DNA of 8,175 nt. It comes from Deltaproteobacteria bacterium RIFOXYA12_FULL_61_11 (GTDB taxonomy: Bacteria; Bdellovibrionota_F; JAHFAK01; YA12-FULL-61-11). Location of the stretch: assembly GCA_001799195.1 (NCBI GenBank), contig MGSU01000192.1, forward strand, positions 1 to 8,175. The letters are read 5' to 3'. Below, in pieces: positions 742-7,690 of the stretch. Under the pieces are notes generated by a model. That model did not search any database and was not told the origin of the DNA. It saw only the letters and a program-made list of their open reading frames with translations. The first letter of the stretch is position 1. Every line of letters begins with the position of its first letter. The position numbers were made by a program, and so were the translations under genes.

Positions 742-770
742 AGGTCGGCATCCCTGCCGCCACTCCGACG
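742..770. repeat. REP-like palindromic repeat, copy 2
   Basis: Second copy of the unit at 619-647, in the same orientation and starting 123 bases later. The first 22 bases are identical, then two mismatches, then CGACG again. It contains the same small hairpin core. Confidence 0.6.
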
Positions 771-781
771 CCGCTGCTTCG

Positions 782-953: not shown

Positions 954-1232
954 GTGGGTTGCCTTTTTCGCGGTCACGTGTTCTGTTCCTTCTTGGCGCT
1001 TGTTCTGCGCAAAGAACTGGAAGATCGCCTCGAAGAAGCGACCGGCTTCGACTTCGAGTGGGACGATGTTGTGCGGGACCTCGACGCCTTGACCCAGACG
1101 GAGATCAACTATGAGAACAAACGGTTCATGCTTCGCAGCACGGCGCGGGTGGTCTGCGGCAAGGTCTTCCAGGCCGTCGGCGTGGCCATGCCCCCCACCG
1201 TCTGCCGCCTCAACAGTGGAGGTGTACCTTGA
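954..1232 (+). pseudogene. IS1634-type (IS4 superfamily) transposase, C-terminal remnant
   Basis: The frame reads RGHVFCSFLALVLRKELEDR, then a DFEWDDVVRDLDALTQ segment, then VVCGKVFQAVGVAMPPTVCR and a stop at 1230-1232. This is the usual C-terminal end of IS1634-type DDE transposases, where a GHVFCSFLAL segment is followed by a DL..L..... region and a final VFQAVGVALPPT block. Only about 90 of an expected several hundred residues remain. In-frame codons back to 882 do not look like the family, so the break lies near 954-960. The GTG at 954 is probably not a real start. The fragment is non-functional. Sequence after the stop, up to roughly 1,340, may include the old right end of the element, but I cannot fix its terminal repeat. 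Confidence 0.8.
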
Positions 1233-1485: not shown

Positions 1486-2107
1486 GGGAAACCTCATCCT
1501 GGGTTGAGGCAGCAGCGTGGCAGGGCAGTGGTTTCTGCCCAACGAGTAGAACCAATGAGGTTCTCAGCTCTCTTTGTCAAGGTTGCTCAACGACTTCGAC
1601 AGTTTCTGTTGCGTGGAAGCCGTGCGGTCCTCGCGAGGGATGCACATGGATAGTTCGCGGTTCTGACGACTCGCCTATTCCTTCGATGGTGCTCTGCTCG
1701 AGGATGGCACGGCGTCCCCATTGCCTGCACTACCTGCCCGCTGACAACCACGTGTTGGGGTACTACAGACCTCCCCAGAGCAGGGCGAGCTTGCGCTGTG
1801 CAACCCTGCGCTCGCCATCGCCCTGCTGTCCGGTCTTGGGAAAGCCGGTAAAGCGGACAACACGGCACGGTATACTGCTGCTTGCCGACGTCACCGCGAT
1901 CTGCTGGTCTGGCTTGGTTTCCCCTACAGCACCAGGCTTCCGGCATTGCTGCGTGACAACCTTGCAGTGCTCTGGGCATGAACCGAGACCGATCGTCAGG
2001 GTGCCTTTCCGAGGTTCAATACTTCCTGATACCCAGTAGTGCGTACCCAGGAAACGTGGTACATCTTGGTCCAGGTCCGGCAGGAACCCTTCGACCAAAA
2101 AGGGGTA
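1486..2107. other. Unassigned stretch between exbB fragment and truncated mod
   Basis: About 620 bases without a recognisable gene. The minus-strand frame continuing from mod stays open to 1763 and includes LGTHYWVSGSIEPRKGTLTI. A plus-strand frame (about 1745-1981) is also open and reads ...RHRDLLVWLGFPYSTRLPAL... before a TGA. Neither resembles a family I know and they cannot both be real. The part next to 1485 should contain the old upstream region of the exbB-like gene. The part next to 2107 is whatever was joined to mod. Confidence 0.4.
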
Positions 2108-2377
2108 GACCGACTCCTCGGGACATGGGCGCAGGGTGCCGGTGGAGGGCATTTGGGCGATCTGCCTGGCGCGAGCTTTGCCGTGCCAGGTGAAGGAGTA
2201 GCGCTCCTCGCGGTCGTCCACGTACTCGCCCAGGGTCTCCTTCAACGCATCGAAGTCGACGCTGCCGTCGGCAAACACCTCAGGAAAGATATCCCTCAGC
2301 CGTTCGATGTTGACCGCCACCACGTTGGGCGATGCTCCGTCCTCTTTTGTCAGTTTCTCTATATTTTTCTTTTTCAT
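2108..2377 (-). pseudogene. mod: Type III DNA methyltransferase (Mod), N-terminal fragment
   Basis: Type III Mod proteins recognise a short asymmetric site and methylate adenine; with Res they form the restriction complex. The first 90 residues are typical of the Mod N-terminus: NIERLRDIFPEVFADGSVDF, then ERYSFTWHGKARA, then TGTLRPCPEESV. The family normally continues with W/F-D-T-T..N.F.EGDNL.VLK and the DPPYN catalytic motif; here that is replaced after position 2108 by unrelated sequence, which stays open to a TAG at 1763. No AdoMet-binding or DPPY motif remains, so the product cannot methylate. The ATG at 2377 lies 6 bases after the HEPN stop with little Shine-Dalgarno sequence, suggesting translational coupling to the HEPN gene. 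No res gene is in the window. Confidence 0.85.
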
Positions 2378-2383
2378 AACGAT

Positions 2384-3445
2384 TTACCATACAACATTTT
2401 CTTTTTTCTTAAGAAGATACAACTGTGTTCCTTTCGTCACCTTGAATTCGAGACGAAGTCCCAATTTTTGGGTATGTGCATCGTTCCCGACTTCCTCGAC
2501 ATCGTTACCATCGACCTGAATTGACACGATATGTCCCCATTGAGTTACATCATCGTTTCGAGAAGCAACGATCTGTTGCCCTTTGGCAATGTTAATGTCA
2601 GGTCGATCGATAATCACCACGAATCCGTTATAGTACGGCCCCTCTGTATCATCAAGCGCGAGCTTCTTTGAATCTTCTGCACTCAATATATATCGTTTCC
2701 TGAGAACATCACTCGCCAGAATGAAATAGAGCGCCTTTCCGTAAGCTTCAACAAAATTGAGCAGGTCAAGCATGTCTGTCGACCCCAGATAGTTATCCAG
2801 GTTGGTGCTGCTGTGTGAAATTTGGTTTCTTCGCTCAACGAAATTGTCAATTCGGTAAGAAATGGTACTTTCAGGGAGCTCGCTGGGAAACCCTTCCAAC
2901 CCTACTACCATTTTTTGCCACAGGATAAGTGCCTCCATTTTTCTTGCTTTTTGGTTAACATTGTCAATACCGATTCGAGCAAAGATATCCTGTATCGTAT
3001 CACTTCGAAGATTCAGGTCATGATGAACCACGGCAGACCTATTTAAAGCATAGATTTTCTGGCCGGATAAACAATCATGCAAATTTGTAACAACCTCTTC
3101 CTCTGTAACGTCGGAATAGCGTCCCTCACCCAGGCGTGCCCGGACGAGTAGCTCCGCCGACTGTTTTAGATGTTTTCGCTGAAGTTTCTCAGGTAGCGCA
3201 GAGTATTGGACTCGCGAAGATTCTAATTTCGTATAAGCCCACACCAAGTTCTCAACAAAACTCTCAAACGCTGCATACAGAGATACGATAAAAGCAACAT
3301 AATCAAGCTTGCGTCGACCCCTGAGATATTTCTCAATTACCGAGTCTGCATTGGACTTCAACAGCTCGTTTATAGGACTAATTGATTCGACGAAGCTTTT
3401 TAGATTGCCCATCTCGGAAGAGAGCTCATCAAGTGTTGCACGCAT
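2384..3445 (-). CDS. HEPN-domain protein (MAE_28990/MAE_18760-like), predicted RNase effector
   Basis: 353 residues, mostly helical from 1 to about 260. The region near 46-72 (LDYVAFIVSLYAAFESFVEN) resembles the opening helices of MAE_28990/MAE_18760 HEPN proteins. ERRNQISH at 204-211 gives the RX4-6H signature (R205/R206 and H211) of HEPN ribonucleases. Family knowledge: such proteins are metal-independent RNases found in toxin and defence systems, often beside DUF262 genes. Residues about 268-349 form a separate beta-rich tail (GFVVII, then GQQIV, then HIVSIQVDG, then LGLRLEFKVTKGTQLYLLKK) that resembles the second, barrel domain of EF-Tu-like GTPases. The ATG directly follows the stop of the DUF262 gene, implying coupled expression. 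No signal peptide or membrane segment is seen, so it should be cytoplasmic. RNase activity is inferred from the motif only. Confidence 0.75.
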   Translation of the reverse strand: MRATLDELSSEMGNLKSFVESISPINELLKSNADSVIEKYLRGRRKLDYVAFIVSLYAAFESFVENLVWAYTKLESSRVQYSALPEKLQRKHLKQSAELLVRARLGEGRYSDVTEEEVVTNLHDCLSGQKIYALNRSAVVHHDLNLRSDTIQDIFARIGIDNVNQKARKMEALILWQKMVVGLEGFPSELPESTISYRIDNFVERRNQISHSSTNLDNYLGSTDMLDLLNFVEAYGKALYFILASDVLRKRYILSAEDSKKLALDDTEGPYYNGFVVIIDRPDINIAKGQQIVASRNDDVTQWGHIVSIQVDGNDVEEVGNDAHTQKLGLRLEFKVTKGTQLYLLKKKENVVW

Positions 3446-4762
3446 CTATTGACCCTTTTTTGCGATTAATTCGATTGTATCAACGAACGCCTGTTTCATA
3501 AGCTCATTTCTCTTCTTGGCATCGGATTTGTTTGTTTTCCTGCCGCCGAAAATATTGTCGTTATCTTTATACATCTTACCGAGTTGTTTCAGCAGCTCAT
3601 CTTTGTTTTCGATCAAAAGGTTACGCTGTTCAGATTGGGCGTATTGGCTAGCAACATACATTACCGGATCATAAATGATTTTGTTCCTCTGTTGCTGGGG
3701 GTTTCCCGAGGAATCCAGACGATAATATGGTGATTCGCCAAGTGTCTCTGATAAAAATGAAATGGTTTGCAAAAACATCTGGCGATAGTTTGTGAGAAGC
3801 TCTTCGGGGAATTTATTGCCCTCAACAATAAATCGATCCAGCATTTCTGCCATTTTGTTGAGACCGGAAGGAAAAGAATCCAATTGACGATATGCGAAAA
3901 AACGCAACACGAGTTCGACATCACCCATCTGTTTGAACCACTTCAAACTCTTGGAATCTTTGGTGTGAGGATCTTCTTCGTAATTGTTTTCATCCTCCTT
4001 ATCTTCTTCCTCTGGAGAAATGTCTGGAAAATTCCAAAACTTTCGAAATGTTTCATTTTTTGAAAGATCTACGCAGAGCTGATTTAGGGGGCCGTCATAA
4101 ACAGCATTACGTGTCTCCTGCCCCTCAAGCTTCACCCCCCCGGAATTCAGGCGCTCAAAGACAATTTTTTTTAGTTTTGTTGCTTGCTCTTTTGTTGGTG
4201 CAGTTTCTTGTAGAAGAATGATGGCTGAAATATACCTACGATCAATTCCATCGCGGATTTTATCCGGGAGATTCTTGTATAACCTTCCGTTGAGCTCGGG
4301 CCAATACTGGAGACCTTCAAGCTTATATTGATTATCGTAGAATTCTTTGAGAGCAGTTAAGCGCTGTCTGCCATCCATGACTTCGTATCGTGCAAGTTCG
4401 CGTTCGTAAAGAAAGATAGGAGGAACCGGAACATTCATCAGGAAAGACTCGATAAGCCTGGACTTTCGATCGATGCTCCAACGATGTCGACGCTGGTACT
4501 CAGGATCGAGCCTATATCGATACTCCGTTTCACTTTTGTCGTTAGTGGCAATCTTTTCCTTAAGCATAGATAATATGCCCGCGAGGGAATATCTGGCGGA
4601 TTCGGTAACAATCCGAACCTCACCCTTGGCATATCGCCTATTAAGTTCTTCGTCCGAAGCGTTGGCCGGGGGAGTTTCGGAGTGGAAGGAAATTTTTTCT
4701 CCCGGTAACAGTGGATTCTCGTAGTCATCTTCAACGGTAAGTTTATCGGGGGTTTCAACCAT
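3446..4762 (-). CDS. DUF262 (ParB/Srx-fold, GmrS-like) protein without HNH domain
   Basis: 438 residues. Residues 80-220 carry the DUF262 core: PEYQRRHRWS (87-96), PVPPIFLYE (112-120), the hallmark DGRQRLTALKEF (130-141) and FERLNSGGVKL...ETRNAV (202-221). In GmrSD, SspE and BrxU this domain is a ParB/sulfiredoxin-like NTPase that reads modification state and controls a nuclease. The usual C-terminal HNH/DUF1524 nuclease is not visible: the rest is helical with an acidic patch (about 248-265), and no HxxP or HNH-type motif is seen. Nuclease function may therefore be supplied by the next gene, the HEPN protein. The start overlaps the methyltransferase stop by 8 bases (ATGGTTGA), and its own TAG abuts the HEPN ATG. 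Base composition is AT-richer than the flanks, consistent with transfer as a block. Confidence 0.85.
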   Translation of the reverse strand: MVETPDKLTVEDDYENPLLPGEKISFHSETPPANASDEELNRRYAKGEVRIVTESARYSLAGILSMLKEKIATNDKSETEYRYRLDPEYQRRHRWSIDRKSRLIESFLMNVPVPPIFLYERELARYEVMDGRQRLTALKEFYDNQYKLEGLQYWPELNGRLYKNLPDKIRDGIDRRYISAIILLQETAPTKEQATKLKKIVFERLNSGGVKLEGQETRNAVYDGPLNQLCVDLSKNETFRKFWNFPDISPEEEDKEDENNYEEDPHTKDSKSLKWFKQMGDVELVLRFFAYRQLDSFPSGLNKMAEMLDRFIVEGNKFPEELLTNYRQMFLQTISFLSETLGESPYYRLDSSGNPQQQRNKIIYDPVMYVASQYAQSEQRNLLIENKDELLKQLGKMYKDNDNIFGGRKTNKSDAKKRNELMKQAFVDTIELIAKKGQ

Positions 4763-5888
4763 TGTATGGCTCCTCTAATCTTACAAAGAAATCAAATTCC
4801 TCGAGCGGCTTTTTCATTTCACGTTTGAATTGGTCCGCTTGTCGTTTGCCGCTCGTAGACAATCCCGCAGAACGAGTTGTCAAAACTTTTAATTTACAAT
4901 CGGCGCCATGAATAGAATCAAGCACAATGTCCTTAGGATTAGCCTTGCGGTCATGTATTCCACCGAACCGAATTGTAAATACAGAACCTGGGCAACATGA
5001 ACGTGCAACATTTTCCCAAACTCCGGCTAGTTGGGCGCTGAATTCAGATGGAGATTTATGTGAAAGCTGGAGTTCATGCTTATAGAACACATTCTCAGGC
5101 CCACCGAGGAACCAGTACCTCAACCACTGGTCCGGCACGTAAGTACGCATTCCATAGTAGGGTGGCGATGTGATAACACTGGAGAAGCGTACTCCAAGAT
5201 CAATTAGATTTAACGTTCGACTATCGCCGCAAAAAACGTAGTAGGGAACATTAGATTGTTCCGAAGTAAAATAATAAGCAGCTTTCCTTTTGACTAGCTC
5301 CACCAAGTCTATATACACAGGCTTCATACCGTGTTTTTTCCAGTATCGGACAGAATAGTCGGGTTTTGACGCATAAGTTCGTGGCATTTGATTCGAAAGA
5401 TAACTGGGAAGTCCTTTGTTTCGAGGACCGTGCAACAATCCCAAAATCAATGCTCGAAGTGCTTTTCGTTGTGGAGATTGTGCGTCTTTCATAAGCTCGG
5501 CCCGTAAAGTGGAAAGATCGCGGAGGGTGCAATTGTGGTAACAAAATGACCAGAATTCCCCTTCAGGTGGCGTAACTTTCGGACTATTTTCAAGAATGCT
5601 TATGCATTCATTAGAAATCTCTTCGGCTAAAACCGAAACCATTTTTCCTTCAGCTATAGCCGCCGCAACCGGATTGCTGTCGATACCGACGGATTTGATA
5701 CCCAATAATCGCGCTGCATAGTTTGTCGTTCCTCTACCGCAAAAAGGATCTAGCACCCAGTCTTCTCTGGGAGCCTTGCTTAGTCTTTTCAAGGGGACAG
5801 GTAGAGGAAACATCGTAAAATATGGACATATCGCGTTTAACCTTTCCAGTGTAAGCGATGCTTTATTTATGGATAGTGTCTTACTCAT
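4755..5888 (-). CDS. DNA methyltransferase, N6-adenine or N4-cytosine amino type
   Basis: 377 residues. AdoMet-dependent DNA methyltransferase motifs are in the order X-I-II-IV: YFTMFPLPVPLKRL (23-36, motif X-like), DPFCGRGTT (47-55, motif I), VGIDSNPVA (67-75, motif II acidic residue), VFCGDSR (218-224) and the catalytic TSPPYYG (240-246). SPPY points to transfer onto an exocyclic amino group (m4C or m6A). RSAGLSTSGKRQADQF near 339-354 looks like a conserved C-terminal block of this group. No separate target-recognition domain is obvious; residues 100-215 are the candidate. The ATG overlaps the stop of the 21-codon leader ORF (ATGA) and the gene overlaps the DUF262 start, so the three appear co-translated. 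It probably marks self DNA for the downstream genes. Target sequence unknown; an orphan or RNA role is less likely. Confidence 0.87.
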   Translation of the reverse strand: MSKTLSINKASLTLERLNAICPYFTMFPLPVPLKRLSKAPREDWVLDPFCGRGTTNYAARLLGIKSVGIDSNPVAAAIAEGKMVSVLAEEISNECISILENSPKVTPPEGEFWSFCYHNCTLRDLSTLRAELMKDAQSPQRKALRALILGLLHGPRNKGLPSYLSNQMPRTYASKPDYSVRYWKKHGMKPVYIDLVELVKRKAAYYFTSEQSNVPYYVFCGDSRTLNLIDLGVRFSSVITSPPYYGMRTYVPDQWLRYWFLGGPENVFYKHELQLSHKSPSEFSAQLAGVWENVARSCCPGSVFTIRFGGIHDRKANPKDIVLDSIHGADCKLKVLTTRSAGLSTSGKRQADQFKREMKKPLEEFDFFVRLEEPYNG

Positions 5889-5950
5889 GATTTCTTTTTA
5901 TCCGCCAATGTGCTAAATAATGCAACTACTTCAATGCTCACCTTCTTCAT
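5885..5950 (-). CDS. 21-codon leader ORF coupled to the methyltransferase
   Basis: ATG at 5950 is preceded by AGGGGG about eight bases upstream, a better ribosome site than the methyltransferase itself has. The peptide begins MKKVSIEVVALF and ends ADKKKS. Its stop overlaps the methyltransferase start as ATGA (5888-5885), the classic arrangement for translational coupling. It could be a leader peptide that loads ribosomes for the operon, or the stub of a lost gene. No function is claimed. Confidence 0.45.
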   Translation of the reverse strand: MKKVSIEVVALFSTLADKKKS

Positions 5951-5966: not shown

Positions 5967-6125
5967 TCACAGCACGTTTTTTGCCTGGGCCAACCAAATA
6001 TCGAGCTCTTTGATTCTTGTGTTCAGCTCAACCTGCTCGGCGAATCGGTCTTGCTTGCCGATGGCTGCCCTGAGGCTGGTGATTTCCCGCTCCACCTCGC
6101 GGCATTGATCGAGCCGTCGTCTGCG
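5967..6125 (-). pseudogene. DUF4391-like protein, C-terminal fragment
   Basis: The reverse strand reads RLDQCREVEREITSLRAAIG, then DRFAEQVELNTRIKELDIWL, ending at TGA 5967-5969. DUF4391 proteins end in a coiled coil with a similar pattern (E...L...I..E.QFNR.VELN..LK.L...). That family commonly sits beside type III mod/res and helicase genes. Only about 50 residues of an expected 200 or more remain, and the frame upstream of about 6,125 does not look like the family. A terminator-like hairpin at 6168-6194 also lies in what would be its coding part. The assignment rests on one short coiled-coil pattern, so chance similarity is possible, but the type III mod fragment on the other side of the cassette supports it. 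Confidence 0.55.
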
Positions 6126-6167
6126 GCCCACCGCTGAATCACCTGTGTCGAGCACGAAGCGACCGGA

Positions 6168-6194
6168 CAAAAAAACCCAAGGGCCGGACTCGGC
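6168..6194 (-). terminator. Hairpin plus seven T, leftward terminator upstream of the cassette
   Basis: On the minus strand GCCGAGTCCGGCCCTTGGG is followed by seven T (6169-6175). CCGAG pairs with CTTGG, including one G-T pair. It would stop leftward transcription coming from the IS1380 side before it reaches the leader ORF and methyltransferase. Confidence 0.45.
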
Positions 6195-6276
6195 ATCCAC
6201 ACACAACCCTCATCACAACCATCTTCATGCGGGCAAGGGTACCATCGTGTCGATTTTACGGCAAGCAGGGAAGTCC

Positions 6277-6340: not shown

Positions 6341-6379
6341 TACAAATAAGTTACAGAGATTTTGCCGAGGAATTTCGCG

Positions 6380-7690
6380 ATGACAGACTGTCGTGAGCAG
6401 CTCGAGTTGTACGCGGACAAGATCAGCGGAACGATGAGGCGGGTGACGATGGTCGCGAGCGAGGAAGAATTGAGCAGCAACGGTGGGATTGCCGCACTGC
6501 GGGTGATCGATGACCAACTGGGGATCACCAGAATGCTGTCGCGAGCCCTCCTCGACCCCCGAGACCCCGAGCGGATAACCTACGAGCACCAGACCCTGAT
6601 CCGGCAACGGGTCTACCAGATCGCCGCGGGTTACGAAGACTGCAACGATGCCGACGAACTCTGCCATGATCCAGCGTTCCTGACTGCCTTGGCCTTGCAC
6701 GACCACGGCAGGCTGAGCAGTCAGCCGACGTTGTCGAGGATTGAGGAGCGGTGCAGTGTCGAGGATATCGCCCGGTTGCAGACTGCCTGGTTGCATCACT
6801 GGATCGACCGGGTGATTGCTTCGGGGCGGCAGGAGGTGGTGCTGGACTTCGACCCGACCGATAACGAGGTGCATGGCGAACAGCAATTGTCGTTCTGGAA
6901 TGGCTACTACGACGAGCGCTGCTTCTTGCACTTTCTGATCATCGACAGCGCGACCGGGGATATCCTCTCGCCGATCTTGCTTCCTGGTACGATCTATGCG
7001 GGGCACTATACGGCGAACTTCTTGGAACTACTCATCTCAAGAATCCGCGCGCGCCTCCCGATGCTCGGTATCTCTGTGCGCATGGACGCTGGCTTCGCTT
7101 GTCCTGAGCTATTCACAGCGCTCGAGAGGCTTCGTCTGGGGTTTACCATCGCCCTGGCCGGCAATCCGGTCCTGCACCGGCTGGCAGCAGAAGACTATGA
7201 AGCGGTCAGCAAGCACGGTGGTCGGCGTTACCGGGAGTTCCTCTATCGGGCCGAGACCTGGCCACAGGCGCGCAGGGTCATTGCCGCCACCTTCTCCCGT
7301 GCACCCGGGGTGGTGCGCCAGCATTTCGTGGTCACCGACCGGCAGGAGCCCGCCGCTGTGGTGTACGAGGACTATTGCCTGCGCGGCGAGACGATAGAAA
7401 ACAGGATCAAGGAGTGGAAGTGTCAGCTCTCCGCAGACCGGACAAGTTGCCAGCGGTTTGAAGCCAACCAACTCCGACTGTTCTTGCACGTCGCCGCCTA
7501 TGCTCTGTTCAAAGAGCTGCAACGACGCCTGGCGAACACCGAGTTCGAGACCGCGACCATCGCAACGCTTCGCTTGCGCTTCCTCAAGGTCGCCTGCTGG
7601 ATCAAGCTTACCAGCCGTAACGTCTGGGTCCGCTTGACCAAGCATGGACCTTCACTGGCTTGGTATCGCCTTATCACCGGCTCTGGTTAG
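6380..7690 (+). CDS. IS1380-family DDE transposase
   Basis: 436 residues, the usual length for the family. It catalyses cut-and-paste or copy movement of the surrounding element. Recognisable parts: SNGGIAALRVIDDQLGI near the N-terminus, DADELCHDPAFLTAL and SSQPTLSRIE (the family's D.D.L..DP.F.....L.SQPTLSR), VVLDFDPTDNEVHGEQQLSF with the first catalytic Asp region (about 155-161), VRMDAGFA with the second Asp (about 236), and the C-terminal ETIENRIKEWK (Glu about 340) followed by DRTSCQRFEANQLRLFLH. All three catalytic positions appear intact. ATG at 6380 was chosen because GAGGA lies eight to nine bases upstream and MTDCREQ matches family N-termini; a TTG 18 bases earlier is less likely. 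Codon use is GC-rich, unlike the AT-rich cassette nearby. Confidence 0.93.
   Translation: MTDCREQLELYADKISGTMRRVTMVASEEELSSNGGIAALRVIDDQLGITRMLSRALLDPRDPERITYEHQTLIRQRVYQIAAGYEDCNDADELCHDPAFLTALALHDHGRLSSQPTLSRIEERCSVEDIARLQTAWLHHWIDRVIASGRQEVVLDFDPTDNEVHGEQQLSFWNGYYDERCFLHFLIIDSATGDILSPILLPGTIYAGHYTANFLELLISRIRARLPMLGISVRMDAGFACPELFTALERLRLGFTIALAGNPVLHRLAAEDYEAVSKHGGRRYREFLYRAETWPQARRVIAATFSRAPGVVRQHFVVTDRQEPAAVVYEDYCLRGETIENRIKEWKCQLSADRTSCQRFEANQLRLFLHVAAYALFKELQRRLANTEFETATIATLRLRFLKVACWIKLTSRNVWVRLTKHGPSLAWYRLITGSG

Follow-up and report, generated by a model that had tools for sequence, protein, structure and literature searches.

Restriction-modification (R-M) systems are textbook DNA cutters, and RNA is the expected target of HEPN proteins with an RX4H motif. 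A widespread R-M-like operon with a HEPN RNase as its only recognisable effector would be a DNA-sensing, RNA-cutting counterpart of R-M, and its existence would account for the repeated pairing of DUF262 switches with RNases, as in PD-T4-2 and ptuXYZ. Here we describe a candidate of this kind, an operon of a DNA methyltransferase (MTase), a DUF262 protein and a HEPN protein on contig MGSU01000192.1 of Deltaproteobacteria bacterium RIFOXYA12_FULL_61_11 (assembly GCA_001799195.1). The stretch analysed, hereafter the window, comprises 8,175 nucleotides and is the entire contig (G000:C192) in an assembly of 342 contigs, in which the trio was found once.

The accessible parts of Anantharaman 2013 (PMC3710099) list a "MAE_28990 HEPN in operon with a ParB nuclease and DNA methylase". 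This operon has the same three components as ours, its HEPN falling into the two Pfam families of the window's, PF18735 and PF18737, and appears there as a table entry without a mechanism. A sequence-only reading of the window had cautioned that the linkage might not be new, and rightly so. In those same parts a "novel beta rich domain" is named for the sister family MAE_18760, and no description was found of the clade structure, MTase swapping, DGRQR signature or barrel identity presented below. No worked-out mechanism for HEPN with DUF262 was found in the literature searched, which covered few subscription journals or preprints and yielded only PMC3710099 and PMC10952713 as relevant. Within that literature MAE_28990 is mentioned in a single paper. 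We consider the gene linkage not new, and the partner-swap evidence, the DGRQR clade signature and the translation-factor barrel new.

The best PADLOC match of the window's DUF262 protein is NsnA (2.6e-57), which we take to be a component of Menshen. Menshen joins DUF262 to an OLD-type nuclease (PMC10952713), whereas the window has no OLD-type nuclease and its DUF262 is partnered by an MTase and a HEPN. PD-T4-2 (Vassallo et al. 2022) consists of a DUF262 protein and a PF18735 HEPN (PMC10952713) and protects E. coli from T4 in its native strain (PMC9519451). It shares the DUF262 component (PD-T4-2_A, 1e-27), but its HEPN profile, PD-T4-2_B, does not match the window HEPN at E 0.1 and matches only 2 of 63 homologues (best 1.7e-4). 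The related DUF262-HEPN pairs on E. coli plasmids have short HEPNs without a barrel, unlike the window, and no report of an MTase in PD-T4-2 was found. Since the second component is unmatched by the PADLOC profiles in either case, we rejected both Menshen and PD-T4-2 as identities for the window.

Other known systems share single features. GmrSD, BrxU and SspE have the same DUF262 N-terminal NTPase domain with its (M)DGxQR motif, but the window lacks their DUF1524 HNH nuclease and has a separate HEPN as predicted RNase effector; the phosphorothioation genes SspABCD of the SspABCD-SspE system are absent from the ORFs of the window, to which this search was confined. PrrC-EcoPrrI likewise links an RNase of the HEPN superfamily to R-M, and the known target of PrrC is tRNA; the window has neither type I R-M nor an ABC/AAA ATPase domain, and DUF262 stands in the switch position. 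The predicted defence operon ptuXYZ also combines a DUF262 gene with an RNase, but this is of the BECR-fold/PIN type, and the operon has a P-loop ATPase and no MTase (PMC11980606). Compared with type II R-M, the trio has the DNA methyltransferase, and domain scans of its three genes found no restriction endonuclease domain, the cognate DNA cutter.

Conservation and co-divergence of the trio

The trio is intact, with all three genes on the minus strand. When 84,980 species genomes were scanned, a DUF262 alignment found 147 relatives, of which the closest 80 were kept. A same-strand HEPN gene follows DUF262 in nearly all of these, the exceptions being contig ends or decayed copies. The window sits in a clade of the DUF262 tree with 100% support in the Shimodaira-Hasegawa-like approximate likelihood ratio test (SH-aLRT). 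Counting the window and L034 (loci are given L numbers), whose broken DUF262 was left off the tree, the clade has 30 loci, with hosts that include Myxococcota, Thermodesulfobacteriota, Pseudomonadota, Actinomycetota and Riflebacteria. A homologous MTase of about 370 amino acids lies directly upstream in 29 of the 30, in the order MTase-DUF262-HEPN; the lone exception, L037, has lost both MTase and HEPN. Loci L030, L023, L027, L035 and L036 look odd in the table of open reading frames (ORFs) owing to long overlapping frames in GC-rich DNA. tblastn, used for clade MTases missed by ORF picking, confirmed the MTase in L023, L027, L035 and L036. Overall, the order of the three genes is shared by 28 other genome loci and two viral contigs, a recurrence beyond chance. 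A search of 59 genomes of mostly remote lineages found distant DUF262s only and no trio.

The genes are tightly packed throughout the clade. Of 24 loci measured for the distance from MTase to DUF262, 23 fall between -26 and +156 bases and the other has an ORF split at the end of its contig; DUF262 and HEPN are 0 to 25 bases apart. The three proteins co-diverge: Mantel correlations of pairwise divergences are 0.86 for MTase-DUF262, 0.95 for DUF262-HEPN and 0.79 for the remaining pair, values that none of 2000 permutations reached. The trio is thus conserved as a unit, which the sequence-only reading had made decisive for its proposal. No locus within the clade has intact DUF262 and HEPN genes without the MTase. 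In the decayed copies, HEPN is broken in L029, DUF262 in L034, and MTase and HEPN are lost from L037; loss of the MTase only was seen in none. In 12 of 12 trio genomes searched whole, the MTase of the window type is single-copy, and that copy is the trio's. Its family is present in 11 of 377 and 4 of 296 genomes in surveys around two hosts, counts that include some remote matches.

Domains and signatures of the three proteins

Profile searches bore out the domain assignments proposed from the sequence. The MTase matches N6_N4_Mtase (PF01555, 1.9e-11) and PADLOC MTase_II (3.1e-17). Its motif I (DPFCGRGTT) precedes motif IV (TSPPY), and SPPY and FCGRGTT are invariant in 26 homologues. It is therefore predicted to be a DNA amino-methyltransferase acting on N6-adenine or N4-cytosine; its nearest solved relatives are 2zie and 8s9n (N4-cytosine MTase).

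The HEPN protein matches HEPN_RiboL-PSP (PF18735, 1.2e-23) and HEPN_MAE_28990 (PF18737, 2e-12), families found in 63/63 and 53/63 of the homologues scanned, respectively. Its motif is RNQISH (R206-x4-H211), and none of the 71 aligned full-length HEPNs deviates at R206, N207 or H211; both the family match and the motif, on which the earlier proposal also depended, are thus conserved. The AlphaFold2 model is confident, with a predicted local distance difference test score (pLDDT) of 93.8 and a predicted template modelling score (pTM) of 0.92. In the model, residues 1-255 are helical and residues 257-351 are predicted to form a beta barrel. Foldseek searches with the barrel gave IF2, aIF2gamma and eIF5B as top matches (E 2.8e-4). 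Among its best solved matches (IF2, aIF2gamma, eIF5B, SelB, EF-Tu, PF0907 and Pbp11), nearly every one is either domain II of a translational GTPase or a single-domain relative. In a VIA fold comparison Z was about 8 over 80-90 residues, with 8.2 over 87-89, and a Z of 8 alone is middling. The fold reading is supported by an independent sequence-profile test. A profile of 32 barrels compared with all PDB sequences found eIF5B first (5.9e-4), followed by IF2-C2 (0.024) and EF-1A (0.029), and 12 of its 15 matches are translation GTPases or Pbp11. Pfam likewise gave GTP_EFTU_D4 and D2 as the best-supported families for the barrels, with GTP_EFTU_D4 at 4.5e-4 in 4 of 32; the window's barrel sequence on its own had no Pfam match. 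We conclude that the C-terminal barrel is a translation-factor domain II of the EF-Tu D2/IF2-C2 type. More distant DUF262-HEPN pairs, found on enterobacterial and Bradyrhizobium plasmids, have short HEPNs in which the barrel has no match.

In EF-Tu and IF2, domain II touches the acceptor end of tRNA. The barrel therefore hints that tRNA or the translation machinery may be the HEPN target, which is the most economical guess, and it provides a specific class of target for which this HEPN family can be tested.

The DUF262 protein matches GmrSD_N (PF03235, 1.1e-25; ParB-Srx-like). A Pfam scan found no DUF1524 HNH nuclease domain and no second domain of any kind in its 438 amino acids. The nucleotide-binding motif is retained in 83 of 83 DUF262s. 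Each of the 28 MTase-linked members that the tree contains, the window included, has MDGRQR, and L037, which has lost its MTase and HEPN, has IDGRQR. Outside the clade the motif is MDGLQR or MDGQQR, and DGRQR occurs in no intact outsider. A124 and R125, beside this nucleoside triphosphate (NTP) motif, are likewise specific to the MTase-linked clade. The structure predicted from a 23-member clade alignment is weak (pLDDT 66, pTM 0.56), and nothing was concluded from it; Foldseek with this model gave no significant match, although BrxU and SspE ranked among its first six with E values above 1, and a profile search found no solved relative at 0.01.

Partner exchange and a proposed mechanism

Both halves of the trio are found with other partners. 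The core unit is the DUF262-HEPN pair, and the MTase is exchanged among loci. A two-domain amino-MTase of about 700 amino acids, related to DUF1156-type enzymes, lies beside DUF262-HEPN in 8 loci, and an Eco57I-type MTase lies upstream of a distant pair on a Bradyrhizobium plasmid (L013). The upstream neighbours of nine loci classed as having no MTase were scanned with Pfam. In six of the nine they are genes with no relation to modification: a ClpC-like ATPase, an aminotransferase, a threonyl-tRNA synthetase, RtcB, a HAD hydrolase and a SIR2/HerA pair. The class slightly overstates the absence of MTases, because two of its loci carry others. In a Bacteriovoracaceae genome (L061:1195-2403) DUF262-HEPN is directly downstream of a C5-cytosine methylase (producing 5-methylcytosine, m5C), and in a Bacteroidia genome (L094:4049-6717) it is downstream of a type I HsdM locus. 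The SIR2-like gene and HerA helicase are directly upstream of DUF262-HEPN in Oceanobacillus (L082:4797-7797), where two defence systems adjoin.

The window's MTase family, in turn, also occurs in three genomes with a HerA (DUF87) helicase and a conserved protein of about 375 amino acids (L122:2754-7439, L123:2382-6947 and L124:5837-10461). This protein contains SVALMASDGGNN and is NurA-like by position only. The module as a whole has no PADLOC match and is a candidate MTase-linked defence system. On rhizobial plasmids (L015:5001-10360 and L016:4965-10315) the same MTase family is convergent with a 1416-amino-acid superfamily 1 (SF1) helicase, to which the closest PADLOC models are DpdJ and Mokosh. 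In the MTase tree the HerA-linked enzymes nest among actinobacterial trio MTases, and the SF1-linked ones join the Roseateles trio. Such natural swaps, in which the MTase joins DUF262-HEPN, HerA or SF1 and DUF262-HEPN joins several MTases or stands without one, offer a ready experiment on what DUF262 reads out.

We propose, with a probability of roughly 45%, that the trio is a modular, R-M-like defence operon with an abortive outcome. The MTase would mark its own site on host DNA, and this mark would be protective. DUF262 would act as a switch that depends on NTP and senses the state of this DNA, either directly or via the MTase; the trigger would be unmethylated foreign DNA. HEPN would be an endoribonuclease kept silent until DUF262 signals an invader. 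Once released, it would be directed to RNA, most likely tRNA or translation complexes, by its C-terminal barrel, and RNA cutting would lead to growth arrest or abortive infection. The strongest link between MTase and effector is the near-universal retention of the MTase in the clade together with the co-divergence, which also make an independent passenger role for the MTase the disfavoured view there. A fuller version, which we regard as doubtful, has a methylation-controlled DUF262 switch firing a HEPN whose captured acceptor-end-binding barrel of IF2/EF-Tu type selects (aminoacyl-)tRNA. Foreign DNA would then be answered by tRNA destruction, and DUF262-HEPN would be an interchangeable cartridge for unrelated MTases.

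Several findings weigh against the proposed R-M-like operon. On the tree, 46 of 54 DUF262-HEPN loci outside the clade have no assignable adjoining MTase, and the rest have unrelated ones. Because most pairs have no recognised MTase nearby, a cognate mark may be dispensable to the DUF262-HEPN module. The MTases beside it also differ in chemistry (amino-MTase, m5C), which is hard to fit with a DUF262 that reads one mark. A pair that stands without an MTase, or beside amino- and C5-MTases, is the strongest point against a fixed one-mark read-out. The sequence-only reading had advanced a similar interpretation, in which DUF262 would detect unmarked or differently marked DNA. The conservation of the trio in the clade, the co-divergence and the invariant HEPN motif support it; the MTase as a universal part is not supported, given these 46 loci. 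The DGRQR signature is a marker of the MTase-linked clade and no proof of coupling to the MTase, because a trait of a single clade reflects one evolutionary event. The gene-loss argument rests on three decayed loci, too few for statistics. In addition, the known DUF262 enzymes GmrSD and BrxU respond to DNA that is modified and not to DNA that is unmodified.

This last point suits a type IV, modification-dependent system, in which DUF262-HEPN alone senses foreign modifications, as in PD-T4-2 or Dazbog, and the MTase is separate or accessory. The DUF262 domains of GmrSD and BrxU recognise modified cytosines (PMC10952713), the window's DUF262 matches PD-T4-2_A and NsnA, and DUF262-HEPN without an MTase is the commonest arrangement; we still find this unlikely, as the clade keeps the MTase in 29 of 30 loci, co-diverging with DUF262 and with reading frames that overlap or nearly abut. 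The same strict retention, with the clade-specific NTP motif, would also suit a sensor tuned to the trio's own mark. In SspE, also a DUF262 protein, the self mark stimulates the NTPase (PMC10952713); in the trio the MTase mark on host DNA would likewise license DUF262 by stimulating NTP hydrolysis, and HEPN would replace the HNH nickase of SspABCD-SspE as effector. However, an RNase without DNA selectivity that self DNA switches on would harm the cell unless a second gate held it back, and the operon shows no such gate. MTase-free DUF262-HEPN relatives are also common; such licensing seems distinctly improbable.

Alternatively, HEPN could be a last-resort effector comparable to PrrC-EcoPrrI, silenced by DUF262 (with the MTase) and set free once the anti-restriction factors of a phage interfere with the MTase or with methylation. 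A guard of this sort is proposed for R-M-linked HEPNs in the accessible parts of Anantharaman 2013 (PMC3710099) and might be expected to stand beside many unrelated MTases, HsdM and m5C enzymes included, as DUF262-HEPN does. With no restriction nuclease in the trio to protect, and nothing to guard in the MTase-free copies, we hold a guard role to be quite unlikely as well. It is very improbable that DUF262 itself cuts DNA, as the nuclease in an R-M system of two components with HEPN as a secondary toxin: ParB/Srx proteins have been described as nucleases ("ParB nuclease" in the accessible text of PMC3710099), but the solved DUF262 enzymes cut DNA with a DUF1524/HNH domain, and none was found here.

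Locus, flanks and mobility

The features of the window are listed in Table 1. As had been read from the sequence, the three same-strand genes are intact, with the stated overlap and a DUF262/HEPN junction of 0 bases (3446/3445). The end then given for the trio, 5950, is about 60 bases beyond the MTase start.

Table 1. Genes, gene remnants and repeats in the window
Feature	Position	Strand	Description
MTase	4755-5888	-	377 amino acids; first gene of the operon
DUF262	3446-4762	-	438 amino acids
HEPN	2384-3445	-	353 amino acids
MTase/DUF262 overlap	4755-4762	-	8 bases; consistent with a single transcript
DUF4391 gene, 3' remnant	5967-6206	-	PF14335 2.3e-11, C-terminus only (profile 173-228 of 232); upstream border of the apparent insertion
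Type III Mod methyltransferase, 5' remnant	1763-2377	-	PADLOC MTase_III 1.8e-24, N-terminal residues 11-90 only
IS1380-family transposase	6362-7690		intact; adjoins the apparent insertion
IS1634-family transposase	954-1232		C-terminal fragment
Direct repeat	619-651 and 742-774		33 bases, 91% identity, 123 bases apart; in the GC-rich left flank

The trio is AT-richer than both flanks, as noted earlier, with 43.6% GC against 59.9% on the left and 56.9% on the right. The type III R-M remnants reported on both sides are also present. DUF4391 is a family that we take to be associated with type III R-M loci, and the Mod remnant begins 6 bases past the HEPN stop. Since the trio sits between the 3' end of DUF4391 and the 5' end of Mod, it appears to have been inserted into a type III R-M locus or to have replaced part of one.

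The cassette is carried on mobile DNA, as seen from the GC island in the window, a phage-like contig and plasmids. Two viral contigs carry the trio; on one of them, which is phage-like (L136:3542-11870), it lies between endolysin and tail-fibre genes. Related pairs or trios occur on conjugative or mobilisable plasmids. On the Shewanella baltica plasmid pS19502 (L009:4575-8358) about 490 bases separate an integron integrase gene from the start of a DUF262-HEPN pair, which is possibly carried as an integron cassette.

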